Assembly (NCBI GenBank): GCA_028714335.1
Contig: JAQTMM010000005.1
Location: forward strand, 1-58,447
DNA length: 58,447 nucleotides
Origin: Dehalococcoidales bacterium
Lineage (GTDB): Bacteria; Chloroflexota; Dehalococcoidia; Dehalococcoidales; RBG-16-60-22
Direction: 5' to 3'
Under the pieces are notes generated by a model. That model was not told the DNA's origin, ran no database searches, and saw nothing but the letters and a program-made list of their open reading frames with translations. Shown piece after piece: positions 3,828-8,355 of this stretch (positions within the stretch are counted from its first letter, which is position 1; every line of letters starts with the position of its first letter). A program made the position numbers and the translations under genes.

Positions 3828-4364
3828 ATGCATATGCAACAGTGGATATTGCTGGCTATCATGGCGGCAGGTGGTGTGGCGGTCATCGGCAGTTATATTC
3901 AGGGCTTCAAGGCACACTCCGGCGGGTCAGAGGTGCTGTGGGGAGGCGTTAAAGGAAGACTGCGCATCCTTAACTACGTCACGATGCTTTTAGCGGTCAT
4001 CGGCTTTTTCGCCTTCAGCTACTGGCTGTTCTTCCAGATAAATCCGGATAACGCGCAAATCGGCGGCAGGATAGGCTACTGGATATATTACGTGATTTTC
4101 CTGCTGATACTGATACCCTCGGCTTTGTGGATGCCGCTGACCTTTGCTTATATGAAAAAGCCCAGCTTCGCCCGATGGATAGGCGTACGCCTAGCGCTGG
4201 CGCTGGTGGGCATCGGTTCGCTGGCATTGCTCTGGGCGATAATCTGCGCCACCCCGCGTGATGCCAACGTAGCCTACTGGTTCGCGGTGGGCGGCGCCGC
4301 GGCATTCAGCCTGCAGACGGCGGTGATGGATATGCTAATATGGCCGGCTTTATTTAAGGTCTAG
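3828..4364 (+). CDS. Five-helix integral membrane protein of unknown function
   Basis: I do not recognise this 178-residue protein. It shows five hydrophobic segments, at about residues 6-25, 49-70, 84-110, 118-140 and 149-172, with short polar loops. The start is supported by an AGGAGG site 9 bp upstream; a second Met is at codon 3. No catalytic motif is visible. Its stop codon overlaps the end of the convergent degV-like gene by 4 bp. The second membrane gene nearby (heliorhodopsin, 5236-6000) is on the other strand, so no operon link can be claimed. Confidence 0.7.
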   Translation: MHMQQWILLAIMAAGGVAVIGSYIQGFKAHSGGSEVLWGGVKGRLRILNYVTMLLAVIGFFAFSYWLFFQINPDNAQIGGRIGYWIYYVIFLLILIPSALWMPLTFAYMKKPSFARWIGVRLALALVGIGSLALLWAIICATPRDANVAYWFAVGGAAAFSLQTAVMDMLIWPALFKV

Positions 4365-5203
4365 CCGCCCACTCTTAAAGCCACCAGTAATACGCCCGGC
4401 CCGCCGTGCACGCCGAGTCCGGCGCCCAGCTCCAGTATGCTTATCTTTTCCGCCGGGAAGAATTCACCCAGCCTCCGGCGGAACTTATCCGCCTGTTCGG
4501 CGATGGCGCTGTGAACAACGACCATATCAACGATGTTCTTTTTGCTCTTAACAAATTCGTAGAGTTTTTCCGCACCGCGGGCAAAACTGCGCACCAACCC
4601 CGCCCGGGAAATTTCGCCATCGCGGAAGGTTAATAGCGGCTTAACGTTCATGAAGTTAGCCGCCGCGGCAATCACTCTGGGCAGCCGCCCGCCCAGCGCC
4701 AAATACTTCATCGTATCGAAGTAGCCGAACATGTGGACGTGTGAGATGCTCTCACGGATATCTTCTGCGAGCTGGGTGATGCTTTTGGCCGACTTTGCCA
4801 ACCTGGCGGCGTACATTGCCACAAGCGCCAGCCCACCGGAATTGAAACGTGAATCAATCACCTCGATGGCGCACTTATCGCTGACGGCTTTTTTGGCTAT
4901 TGACGCCGCATTACAGGTGCCGCTTATCTTCGACGATATATGAATAGAAACGATGCCGTCGCACTTGCCGCAGTATTCCTTGTAAACAGCCGTAAAGTCG
5001 TCCGGGGTAGGCTGGGAGGTGGCGGGATACCAGTGTGTCGCCGACGTCAGCATCGCATAAAGCGCCTCGCTCTGGATGTCCACGCCGTCGCGGAAAAGCT
5101 GGTCGCCAAAGCGGACGTATATCGGCACCACGCGGATGCCCAGTTCTTTAGCGGTCTCCAGCGGTATGTCAGAAGTGCTGTCGGTAATAATCTGGAAAGC
5201 CAT
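4361..5203 (-). CDS. DegV family fatty-acid-binding protein
   Basis: The 280-residue protein begins with ITDSTSDIP and has the HISSKISGT motif near residue 90, both hallmarks of the DegV/EDD fold that binds a fatty acid. In Firmicutes, FakB proteins of this family present fatty acids to the kinase FakA; no fakA (DAK2) gene is in the window. The length matches the family. It follows the heliorhodopsin gene on the same strand with a 32-bp gap, so the two may be co-transcribed. Confidence 0.88.
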   Translation of the reverse strand: MAFQIITDSTSDIPLETAKELGIRVVPIYVRFGDQLFRDGVDIQSEALYAMLTSATHWYPATSQPTPDDFTAVYKEYCGKCDGIVSIHISSKISGTCNAASIAKKAVSDKCAIEVIDSRFNSGGLALVAMYAARLAKSAKSITQLAEDIRESISHVHMFGYFDTMKYLALGGRLPRVIAAAANFMNVKPLLTFRDGEISRAGLVRSFARGAEKLYEFVKSKKNIVDMVVVHSAIAEQADKFRRRLGEFFPAEKISILELGAGLGVHGGPGVLLVALRVGG

Positions 5204-5235: not shown

Positions 5236-6000
5236 TTATAAAACCAGAATATTGGCAAAGACCAGCCAGGCCAGTAGTGATTTAGCCGTCAGGCTTAAGA
5301 GGATATAGACCTTCTCGCCGTAGAGGTAGTCCTTCCACGCCCCGATTTTCTTGTACTGCAGAATCATGTTGACGGCAAAGCAGTTGAAGAAGATGAAAAG
5401 GCAAATGAAGATAGCGTAAACGAATCCCGGCGGAGTGGCGCTGATGCCGGGGGCGATAAGGTAAACCAGTATAGCTATCCAGGGGATGATGCCGGCAAAG
5501 CTCCCGAACCAGAAGGGCATCCAGCCGGGTTTGCCCGGTTTTTCGTATTTTTCCTGCAGAGCGCCGAATAAAATCATACAGGCGTTGATGCCGAAGATAG
5601 TCACTAGAGCGCCAATATCGCTGATGCCGGTTATCTGGGCGATGAGCACAATCATTATAGAAGCGCTGAAGAAGTACTCAATCCACCGCCCGGGGTTGCG
5701 GTTCTGGAGCAGGTTGCGCTTATACCACGGGAAGACCCAGGGGGAAGCGATTAGCAGTAATGCCAGCGCTGATATCGCCATGAAGGCAAAGACCCCCCAA
5801 CCCGTCTGGATGCTCCAGATGTGGTGCAGGCTGGCGGCGCTGCCGGGCGGCCCCTCCATAAAGGTGGCGGTTACAGGGAGTGAAAAGTTGTTGGTCAGAA
5901 TCGCCATCAATACCGCCTGCACGGCCAAAACAATGCCGACGGCGATATTCCAGATACGAAGATTGCGTAGTTTTCCTTCGATTGCCTGGTTGACAGTCAT
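5236..6000 (-). CDS. Heliorhodopsin (retinal-binding seven-helix protein)
   Basis: The 254-residue protein has seven hydrophobic segments. Helix 7 contains LTAKSLLAW, placing a lysine at residue 240 where heliorhodopsins carry the retinal Schiff base (Lys241 in the founding member). Helix 3 contains RWIEYFFSASIM, with Glu108 at the position of the known counterion Glu107. Further family-like stretches are IFGINACMILFG, PFWFGSFAGIIPW and PGFVYAIFICLFIFFNCFAVN. Heliorhodopsins are light-responsive proteins with inverted topology and largely unknown roles, reported mainly from monoderm microbes. A strong AAGGAGGTG site precedes the ATG. No carotenoid-cleaving or carotenoid-synthesis gene is visible here. 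Identification is from remembered motifs, not alignment. Confidence 0.88.
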   Translation of the reverse strand: MTVNQAIEGKLRNLRIWNIAVGIVLAVQAVLMAILTNNFSLPVTATFMEGPPGSAASLHHIWSIQTGWGVFAFMAISALALLLIASPWVFPWYKRNLLQNRNPGRWIEYFFSASIMIVLIAQITGISDIGALVTIFGINACMILFGALQEKYEKPGKPGWMPFWFGSFAGIIPWIAILVYLIAPGISATPPGFVYAIFICLFIFFNCFAVNMILQYKKIGAWKDYLYGEKVYILLSLTAKSLLAWLVFANILVL

Positions 6001-6141
6001 GTAACACCTCCTTTTTAATTATCTTAGTTTTGCAACATTCTGGATAAAAGTCAATACCTCTAGTGATGGCTGGTTTACGGGCCAGAAATCATAAGGAAAA
6101 GAACGCAAAAAACGTTTGTAAAATAAAGACAAAAACACCTA

Positions 6142-6171
6142 TTGCCAAACGGAATTTGTTCGTTATATAAT
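6142..6171 (+). promoter_or_regulatory. Candidate promoter for the zinc-ribbon gene at 6284
   Basis: TTGCCA (6142-6147) and a consensus TATAAT (6166-6171) are 18 bp apart. A start near 6178 would give a leader of about 106 nt that contains the hairpin described next. Confidence 0.6.
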
Positions 6172-6177
6172 GTGCAT

Positions 6178-6283
6178 CAGTGGTTTTCTGTCTAGGGTAT
6201 CACATGCATTTAGGTTTACCTAAGCTCGACATGGTTACGGATGACCTAGCTCTAACCAACTAAATTAAGAAAGGAGGTCATCC
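6178..6283 (+). promoter_or_regulatory. Structured 5' leader with hairpin overlapping the ribosome-binding site
   Basis: CGGATGACCT (6239-6248) pairs perfectly with AGGTCATCCG just before and into the GTG start. The 3' arm takes in the end of the AAGGAGG Shine-Dalgarno site. The loop carries CTCTAAC. The paralogous gene at 37106-37390 has the same arms (GGATGACC / GGTCATCC), the same CTCTAAC and nearly the same spacing, which suggests a shared cis-acting translational control element rather than chance. Upstream, TTAGGT/ACCTAA could form a second small hairpin. Confidence 0.6.
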
Positions 6284-6583
6284 GTGGCGTTCGAGGATAA
6301 AACACTTACTTGTGCTGATTGTGGGGCTACTTTCACATTCTCGGCTTCCGAGCAGGAGTTCTTCCAGTCCAAGGGTTATACCAACGAACCGAAGAGATGC
6401 CCTGCCTGCCGGCAGAACAGGAAGTCCGAACGTATGGGCGGTGGCGGTGGAAGACCCCGCCAGATGTTCTCAGCCGTTTGCGCCGAATGCGGCAAAGAAA
6501 CCGAAGTACCCTTCGAGCCCCGTGAAGGCAGACCGGTATATTGCAGCGAATGTTTCAACAAGATGCGGAACAACCGCAACTAA
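6284..6583 (+). CDS. Small double zinc-ribbon protein (zf-trcl-like)
   Basis: The 99-residue protein starts at GTG, fixed by the AAGGAGG site 8 bp upstream. It has two paired-Cys ribbons: CADC with CPAC (about residues 10-42) and CAEC with CSEC (about 66-91), joined by a Gly-rich linker. The EFFQSKGYTNEPKRC segment is typical of the small bacterial zinc-ribbon family often linked to cold-shock-type proteins; the function is unknown. The paralog at 37106-37390 is about as long and clearly similar throughout. It is followed by a strong intrinsic terminator and is therefore probably monocistronic. Confidence 0.85.
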   Translation: MAFEDKTLTCADCGATFTFSASEQEFFQSKGYTNEPKRCPACRQNRKSERMGGGGGRPRQMFSAVCAECGKETEVPFEPREGRPVYCSECFNKMRNNRN

Positions 6584-6669: not shown

Positions 6670-7542
6670 TTATTGTTTGGTTATTTCCACCCTGGTACCG
6701 GTGGACAGATTATAAGTTGAGGCAAAGGATGCCATATTCCGCGATAGCTGGAAGAAATCAAGGCTGTTGATAAATGCCACCGCTTCGCCCTCGGCGACGC
6801 TGCTGTAGGTAACGCCGAATTTCACCGAGATGGTTTGGCCGTTAATCGTTACTTTTAGCGTATCGCCCACCGCCAGACCTGCCTGGGCGCAGTCGGCGCC
6901 GGAGATGTTGGTCAGGCAGCTGCCGAAGTGGTCGATAAAAACCACCGAGCCCTGAATCACGTTATTGGCAACTGTGACTTTCTGAATATCCAGCATCACC
7001 GGATTACTAACTTCCGGCCCGACGTCTGCCAGCGAGCGGCCAGAGGCAATCAACGCGGCCACCCTCCCCAGAATATAATGGGAAGACAGCATATTTTCCG
7101 GGCGGTCGTACAGGCCGGTGTTGGTAATCGAGTAGAGCTTTTTAATGCCGAAATCATTAATAACGTTGGTGAGAAGGCCGTTATTCGCCGCGACGAATAT
7201 CTGGTCTTTTTCGGTCAGCAGTACCAAGTACTGGACGTCTTCACTGGCCGGAGACCCAACCCCCGCCACAAAAATCACGTTGGCGGGGAATTCCTTGGCG
7301 GTTAAATCCAGGATATATGCCCCGGTAGCGACATCCATGCCGGTAATGCCGTGGGTGGCGTCAATCATCTCAACATCAGGGTAGGTGTTGTAGATAATGC
7401 CCTTTAAACGCGGCACGCGGTAGTCGTCATAGCCGTAGTCCGTCAACAGGATAACGGGCATGCCGTCTTGGGAAGGCGGGGCGCAGCCGACAAAGGATAA
7501 CAGCAGCACAACGATAAGAGCGATAAATAGGAATTTCTTCAT
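6670..7542 (-). CDS. Lipoprotein related to SAM hydroxide adenosyltransferase / chlorinase (DUF62), degenerate active site
   Basis: The 290-residue protein starts with a lipoprotein signal (hydrophobic stretch, then FVGC at residue 20). The rest follows the DUF62 layout: LLTDYGYDD near the start, DATHGI, an NNGLLTNV motif, and a C-terminal barrel with VVFIDHFGSCLTNI. Cytoplasmic members hydrolyse S-adenosylmethionine with an Asp-Arg-His set. Here the VDPGVG-x-x-R region reads FVAGVGSPASE, so the Asp and Arg seem absent, although a His is kept in SSHYILGRVAA. A surface-exposed and altered copy argues for another substrate or a binding role. It is 24 bp downstream of the acetolactate decarboxylase gene and likely co-transcribed with it. 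Confidence 0.75.
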   Translation of the reverse strand: MKKFLFIALIVVLLLSFVGCAPPSQDGMPVILLTDYGYDDYRVPRLKGIIYNTYPDVEMIDATHGITGMDVATGAYILDLTAKEFPANVIFVAGVGSPASEDVQYLVLLTEKDQIFVAANNGLLTNVINDFGIKKLYSITNTGLYDRPENMLSSHYILGRVAALIASGRSLADVGPEVSNPVMLDIQKVTVANNVIQGSVVFIDHFGSCLTNISGADCAQAGLAVGDTLKVTINGQTISVKFGVTYSSVAEGEAVAFINSLDFFQLSRNMASFASTYNLSTGTRVEITKQ

Positions 7543-7566: not shown

Positions 7567-8355
7567 TTACTTTTCAGCCTGTTCCAGCTGGCCGGAGAGG
7601 TCGGGCGTAAGGTCCAGGTCATAAAAGTCGCTGTCCATACCGGGCAGTATCATCGTGAACACTGGTGTATAGTCAATAGAGATATCGCCGCTGATGATGG
7701 TGAAATCGAGTATATGGCCGCCGGCATTTTCAGCCGTGTTGATAAAGTGGAGGTGATACCCCACCACATTTACACCATCCACATAGGTGGGGCAGAAGAA
7801 ACCGACGATTGTCCCCGTTACCTCGGTGAACTCAAAGACGGGCTGGTTTTTGGTGACTTCCACCAGGGGCGGGTAAGGCTTTTGCTGGCCCGGCACGCTG
7901 CGGGTTTTCATGTAGCTGAAGGTGCCGGTTATTTTAATGGCGCAAAAGATATTCTCGGTGGGTAGGGAGTCGTTAATGAGTGTCTGGATTTGCGCGTAGG
8001 TCAGGTTTTCACCGGATAACGCTATCTGTTTATCAGAATCAAAATATGTAACCGAGGCGAATGGCGTCATTACGCTGGAATCTACAAGATATGCCACGCC
8101 GTCGGCTTTAACCTGATATACCTTGCCGTCCAGCACCACCATTTCACCGTCGAGGCCCTCAAATGTGCCGATGCCGAAGTCGCCGTACTCCACCAGTTCG
8201 CCGCAAGAAATCACGCCGTCATAAACACCGTTAAGAATGGCGTCTATCGTGGAAACCTGCGTTAACGTTTCCCTGTCCTGCGCTGAGCCGCAGGCGGTAA
8301 CACCCGAAACGACTAAAAGGAGAATCAAGAACAGCGCTAAGATTTTATGTTTCAT
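7567..8355 (-). CDS. budA: Alpha-acetolactate decarboxylase with lipoprotein signal
   Basis: The 262-residue protein has a signal peptide ending in VTAC (lipobox Cys at residue 22), then the acetolactate decarboxylase fold. The zinc site GYHLHF-x8-GGH and the TRSVPGQQKPYPPL segment with the conserved Arg are both present. The enzyme converts acetolactate to acetoin. Some family members are exported, but cytoplasmic versions serve 2,3-butanediol fermentation; no acetolactate synthase or acetoin reductase gene lies nearby. It is the first gene of a two-lipoprotein unit with the DUF62 relative. Confidence 0.87.
   Translation of the reverse strand: MKHKILALFLILLLVVSGVTACGSAQDRETLTQVSTIDAILNGVYDGVISCGELVEYGDFGIGTFEGLDGEMVVLDGKVYQVKADGVAYLVDSSVMTPFASVTYFDSDKQIALSGENLTYAQIQTLINDSLPTENIFCAIKITGTFSYMKTRSVPGQQKPYPPLVEVTKNQPVFEFTEVTGTIVGFFCPTYVDGVNVVGYHLHFINTAENAGGHILDFTIISGDISIDYTPVFTMILPGMDSDFYDLDLTPDLSGQLEQAEK

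Follow-up and report, generated by a model that had tools for sequence, protein, structure and literature searches.

The locus examined here raises the question of what a photoreceptor might do in a bacterium of an anaerobic lineage in which no recognised route to retinal is found. The window, a stretch of 58,447 nucleotides representing contig C5 of a Dehalococcoidales draft genome (1.74 Mb, 88.8% complete), had been annotated in a first pass as encoding a seven-helix heliorhodopsin (HeR) of 254 residues, followed by a DegV-type gene and divergent from a zinc-ribbon gene with a regulatory leader. The features concerned are the following.

3828..4364, forward strand: 178-residue membrane protein, representing an undescribed family (c4), whose gene converges on the DegV gene (profiles, model)
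4361..5203, reverse strand: DegV-family protein (fatty-acid-binding EDD domain), 280 residues (TIGR00762, 6.5e-76)
5236..6000, reverse strand: heliorhodopsin, 254 residues, with retinal-site Lys240, counterion Glu108, Ser236 and Leu25/Leu81 (profiles, alignment, model)
6001..6283, no strand assigned: divergent intergenic region with the HeR ribosome-binding site AGGAGGTG and a presumed promoter (sequence reading)
6150..6302, forward strand: conserved 5' leader of the zinc-finger gene together with a promoter-like TATAAT element, also conserved (four-genome alignment, fold z = -3.1)
6284..6583, forward strand: treble-clef/CxxC zinc-finger (zinc-ribbon) protein, 99 residues, GTG start, divergent from HeR (zf_Tbcl, 7.2e-22)

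Identity of the heliorhodopsin

The gene is a genuine, intact and full-length heliorhodopsin, and no artefact. The open reading frame has exactly the annotated length, and its product matched the heliorhodopsin profiles of both Pfam (PF18761; 1e-94, 242 of 242 positions, 316.9 bits against a cut-off of 26.7) and NCBIfam (NF038020; 7.5e-94, 313.8 bits, cut-off 100), as well as the structurally solved heliorhodopsins 48C12 (2.4e-69) and TaHeR (1.9e-56). The two residues singled out in the first-pass annotation were borne out by alignment to 48C12, in which Lys240, the helix-7 lysine, corresponds to Schiff-base Lys241 and Glu108 to the counterion Glu107; Ser236 likewise corresponds to Ser237. The equivalents of K241, E107 and S237 were invariant across 107 aligned heliorhodopsins, including all 42 from the order.

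The AlphaFold2 model of the protein (pLDDT 85.5) comprised seven helices and the A-B beta hairpin specific to heliorhodopsins, the latter formed by two antiparallel strands (residues 40-48 and 56-65). The closest fold was that of 48C12 (6SU3, TM 0.92). The protein is not closer to type-1 rhodopsin pumps or channels in sequence or fold, the best fold match outside the heliorhodopsins having an E-value of 4.7e-4, a TM score of 0.58 and 13% identity. By analogy, the protein is expected to have the inverted topology, with a cytoplasmic N terminus.

Variant Schiff-base cavity

The resemblance to 48C12 (6SU3, 6UH3), the host of which is a surface actinobacterium, extends from the fold to 47% sequence identity, the GPPG motif of the A-B loop and the Lys/Glu/Ser set around the Schiff base. 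The two proteins differ, however, in the Schiff-base cavity, where H23 and H80 of 48C12 are replaced by Leu25 and Leu81. Leucine occupied both positions in each of the 27 proteins that make up the window protein's clade and in L037 and L039, the two Actinomycetota rows closest to that clade, while nearly all of the remaining heliorhodopsins of the set kept both histidines. The double leucine is a newly recognised feature of this clade. A role as proton acceptors was once suggested for the histidines, which are typical of heliorhodopsins rather than defining; in 48C12 mutants at these positions the pigment still forms, with an unchanged absorption maximum (PMC6951262).

Anaerobiosis of the host and retinal supply

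The first-pass annotation had described the organism as probably strictly anaerobic. The anaerobe lineage and the lack of any match to COX1, the haem-copper oxidase, in the host draft are consistent with this description, although COX1 exceeded the cut-off in 16 of the 156 genomes of the order; strict anaerobiosis of this particular organism is therefore likely rather than proven. Among the HeR-bearing genomes of the order, 41 of 47 lacked a haem-copper oxidase at the cut-off. Oxidase status and HeR presence were not associated (P 0.57), and oxygen respiration was dropped as a predictor of HeR. Dehalococcoidales contains one family rich in reductive dehalogenases, Dehalococcoidaceae (f10), assigned here by at least 13 reductive-dehalogenase matches in every genome. 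Members of this family inhabit subsurface sites. They are strict anaerobes (PMC3475024).

No retinal synthesis gene had been seen in the window, and the same result was obtained for the entire draft genome with models for the carotenoid cleavage enzymes BCD/Blh and RPE65 and for phytoene synthase. Neither BCD/Blh over the cut-off nor an RPE65 match was detected in any of the 156 genomes of the order, and the single-contig Dehalococcoidaceae genomes also lacked retinal-synthesis matches. Phytoene synthase exceeded the cut-off in three genomes of the order, two of which carry HeR (G061 and G127); the host is not among them. The BCD search was sensitive enough to detect the enzyme in three HeR-bearing genomes of other groups (4e-36, 6e-36 and 9e-27), and the RPE65 and phytoene synthase searches were positive in control genomes. 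The other 42 of the 45 HeR-bearing genomes tested from other groups lacked BCD over the cut-off, so that absence of retinal synthesis appears to be the rule among HeR hosts. In Dehalococcoidales, the lack of a recognised retinal-forming enzyme implies that any retinal would be either imported or made by an unrecognised enzyme.

The presence of a photoreceptor in such a lineage had been called puzzling. The observation holds, but its novelty had been overstated, since heliorhodopsins of anaerobes and of hosts lacking retinal synthesis, among them those of Dehalogenimonas and Bellilinea, were characterised earlier (PMC7807009, PMC9385722, PMC8612252). TaHeR (6IS6, 7U55), which is about 45% identical to the window protein and derives from a Thermoplasmatales archaeon, also belongs to a host without retinal synthesis, for which uptake of exogenous retinal via a fenestration was proposed (PMC9385722). 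MORN-HeRs occur in strictly anaerobic Firmicutes (PMC8612252). A counterpart from the same order is DaHeR of Dehalogenimonas alkenigignens, whose genus is strictly anaerobic; the purified protein absorbs at 539 nm (PMC7807009), and a heliorhodopsin from this order thus does bind retinal. As judged by the FDEI motif reported for its A-B loop, DaHeR would fit another HeR clade, one that keeps the histidines and is about 44% identical to the window protein.

Distribution, acquisition and selection

HeR was found in 47 of the 156 Dehalococcoidales genomes, some of them single-contig genomes, and in 10 of 11 Dehalococcoidaceae (3 of 3 Dehalococcoides and 7 of 8 Dehalogenimonas). The literature searched on Dehalococcoides in connection with rhodopsin, retinal or light yielded nothing on its HeR. 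In a tree of the 107 heliorhodopsins (a quick tree with SH-aLRT support only), the proteins of the order fell into four clades of 27, 9, 3 and 3 rows, and its well-supported branches forced at least three changes. The window protein lies within the 27-row clade, whose closest neighbours are Actinomycetota, the Dehalococcoides proteins lie in the 9-row clade, and those of three f4 genomes are nested inside Bacillota. The tree thus indicates that Dehalococcoidales acquired HeR at least three times, which has not previously been described.

Also new is that the retinal site is intact in all of the examined copies of the order, which evolve under strong purifying selection: dN/dS was 0.03-0.11 in the 13 pairs of relatives with measurable dS, the three Dehalococcoides species included. 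Remnants with stop codons in two genomes (G104 and G048) show that HeR can be lost. These remnants and the patchy spread (47/156) might suggest that the gene is a binning artefact, or that it was acquired horizontally and is now neutral or decaying, but this reading is highly improbable, being largely refuted by the dN/dS values and by the conserved gene order described below and, as regards binning, by the presence of HeR on single-contig genomes.

The DegV gene and the 178-residue membrane protein

The DegV-type gene placed after HeR by the first-pass annotation was confirmed by its TIGR00762 match; it lies 32 bp downstream on the same strand and belongs to a subfamily that adjoins HeR and/or the 178-residue family across the order. 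The 178-residue protein had no Pfam match over the cut-off and no NCBIfam match. Its model (pLDDT 88.4) comprised five long helices, and the family carries conserved motifs such as SALWMPLT. Foldseek returned no match under an E-value of 0.001, and VIA-align returned generic helical bundles (best Z 9.6); as no specific fold match was obtained, neither a known fold nor TspO kinship is claimed for the family.

The 178-residue family was present in 29 of the 156 genomes of the order. In a sample of 400 genomes from the phylum, eight had a match; seven of these belonged to the order and the eighth match was partial, so that the family is nearly confined to Dehalococcoidales. The family co-occurred with HeR (odds ratio 16, P 1e-9), and of its 30 copies in genomes with HeR, about 12 lay within 10 kb of the HeR gene (chance about 1e-15, treating related genomes as independent). 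In loci that lack HeR, the gene is likewise found next to this DegV subfamily, so that DegV and the 178-residue protein look like a resident pair, with HeR as the newcomer.

The order HeR-DegV-c4 recurred in G103 and G099, both of the window's genus, and in G099 the identical slot holds a HeR of another clade. Across the order, DegV lies downstream of heliorhodopsins from three clades. However, it is the immediate downstream gene in no more than about 11 of 41 loci, and in Dehalococcoides DUF2177 and peptide deformylase genes are found instead. DegV was reported as a HeR neighbour by an earlier survey, which, as cited in PMC9385722, lists DegV or Blh, and the adjacency itself is therefore shared with known HeR neighbourhoods. 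What is new is the occurrence of different HeR clades in one slot before DegV and an undescribed five-helix family; neither this slot nor the replacement of HeR within it was found in the literature searched.

Staygreen, tetrapyrrole and redox neighbours in relatives

In relatives of the host, the neighbours of HeR or of the 178-residue gene included Staygreen (Mg-dechelatase), a small ArsC-like protein, SOUL, TspO, DUF1295, DUF2177, peroxiredoxin, MsrA and a Fur-family regulator (MsrA and the L128 peroxiredoxin were named by reading their sequences). Redox and two-component genes have also been described as enriched around heliorhodopsins (PMC8612252).

Staygreen directly follows HeR, or is separated from it by one small gene, in G046 and G102, and lies within 5 kb of it in G101. 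Seven genomes of the order carry Staygreen, six of which also carry HeR (P 0.003), and three of the eight copies in HeR-bearing genomes were within 10 kb of HeR (P 1e-4, related genomes being treated as independent). In two Lokiarchaeota genomes, Staygreen is located directly downstream of HeR and a TspO-like gene upstream, the latter related to one in a Dehalococcoidales cluster of Staygreen, DegV and 178-residue genes. The catalytic D34 and D62, which are essential in the Anaerolineae Staygreen homologue AbSGR-h (PMC8531759), were kept in all of these proteins from both groups; the window's relatives carry genes of the AbSGR-h type beside HeR. The association of HeR with Staygreen in Dehalococcoidales and Lokiarchaeota is new: no paper on it was found in a literature search that scarcely covered subscription papers.

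The haem-binding SOUL protein adjoins or lies near HeR in three genomes and TspO in two; a TspO-like gene also shares the contig stretch of HeR in Anaerolineaceae. TspO did not co-occur significantly with HeR (P 0.33), and the two adjacent cases involve near-identical heliorhodopsins and hence represent one event. In the window, no Staygreen, SOUL, TspO or receptor-transducer gene lies beside HeR; no Staygreen was detected in the window or the host draft genome, and the TspO gene of the host is on another contig.

Two further arrangements were observed. The Lokiarchaeota cluster (L104, 1887-3196; L105, 4269-9081) comprises genes for a TspO-like protein, an ICMT/PEMT-like methyltransferase, an SDR, HeR, Staygreen and a methyltransferase. 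In G152 (L229, 1203-7118), TspO-like, DegV, 178-residue, ArsC-like and Staygreen genes run on the same strand and face PNPOx, DUF1731 epimerase and methyltransferase genes, an arrangement reminiscent of a photo-defence island that lacks HeR.

The divergent zinc-finger gene and its leader

The divergent zinc-ribbon gene of the first-pass annotation was supported by its zf_Tbcl match, and it is also found beside HeR in G103 and G084. Strong conservation of its leader was seen in four genomes, and pairing of ACGGATGACC with GGTCATCCGT is predicted to give a long hairpin that would cover the ribosome-binding site and start codon. Nothing near HeR, the leader included, reached the Rfam gathering threshold; a new translational switch or thermosensor is possible. 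In G104, the HeR remnant with a stop codon (L249, 5956-6078) lies beside the same zinc-finger gene and resembles a different HeR clade. Two reverse-strand genes of the window, encoding a SAM hydroxide adenosyltransferase-like protein (6670-7542) and an alpha-acetolactate decarboxylase (7567-8355; 4.3e-83), have signal- or lipoprotein-like starts.

Functional interpretation

The best explanation, to which about an even chance may be assigned, is that the protein is a working photosensor that uses scavenged retinal and is coupled to a photoprotection kit for membrane lipids and tetrapyrroles. The protein, its intact site, the selection, the repeated acquisition and the company of the gene were observed; uptake, light response, partner and direction of effect are what we infer. 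All-trans-retinal would be taken up from outside, with debris of phototrophs or animals supplying retinal or apocarotenals, since no recognised retinal-forming enzyme is present in the host draft or in any genome of the order. Light would then switch HeR and, through it, modulate membrane-side proteins encoded by adjacent genes, in the window presumably the DegV-type fatty-acid-binding protein and the 178-residue membrane protein, and in relatives perhaps Staygreen, SOUL, TspO or TspO-like, DUF1295/DUF2177 membrane proteins, peroxiredoxin and MsrA. A cell sensitive to oxygen could in this way respond to light exposure by adjusting its membrane lipids and disposing of tetrapyrroles that act as photosensitisers. 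This mechanism is least certain as to which protein is the direct partner and in which direction the effect runs. Precedent for coupling to a neighbour-encoded protein is provided by the reported outputs of other heliorhodopsins on glutamine synthetase (PMC9529153), a photolyase (PMC9769723) and an ABC transporter (PMC11109279).

Alternatively, the protein may be an ordinary photosensor, acting as in surface Actinobacteria in a host that meets light in shallow freshwater or fen sediment and obtains retinal from its neighbours; the assumption of a dark life would then be mistaken. The position of Actinomycetota as the clade closest to the main HeR clade of the order, sample names of HeR-bearing relatives such as fen_1014, and the lack of BCD in 42 of 45 HeR-bearing genomes elsewhere all fit this possibility, which is nevertheless on the unlikely side, given that HeR is carried by nearly all Dehalococcoidaceae, which are known from subsurface sites and are strictly anaerobic (PMC3475024). 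A role independent of retinal, as a membrane scaffold or a lipid-binding or redox-linked protein for which light is irrelevant, would accord with the order-wide lack of a recognised retinal-forming enzyme, the lipid-related DegV neighbour and the failure of oxidase status to predict HeR (P 0.57). It is improbable, since all 42 proteins of the order retain the Schiff-base lysine, the counterion and the equivalent of Ser237 even though one clade replaced both histidines, and since the Dehalogenimonas protein is pigmented (PMC7807009).

The preferred reading, that of a photosensor with scavenged retinal, can be extended to a wider proposal, which is speculative and rather doubtful as a whole. HeR would serve as light sensor in a photo-defence kit of anaerobes, common to Dehalococcoidales and Lokiarchaeota, of which one part (Staygreen, TspO-like, SOUL) would dechelate and handle chlorophyll or other photosensitising tetrapyrroles and another (DegV, DUF1295, the 178-residue family) would adjust the lipids of the membrane. 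The physiological role of bacterial Staygreen homologues has been stated to be unknown (PMC8531759); if the proposal is true, such a kit would give bacterial and archaeal homologues one, and the link to HeR would be a first testable role for prokaryotic Mg-dechelatases.

The protein itself is of a known type, and the value of the finding resides in the order-wide pattern and in the Staygreen/178-residue neighbourhood. The role of heliorhodopsins is still largely open, and the search for an output is narrowed by intact, selected copies that were acquired repeatedly by organisms with no apparent means of making retinal and that lie beside the same lipid- and tetrapyrrole-related genes. Most of the Dehalococcoidaceae genomes examined carry HeR, and the question is therefore testable in isolates.
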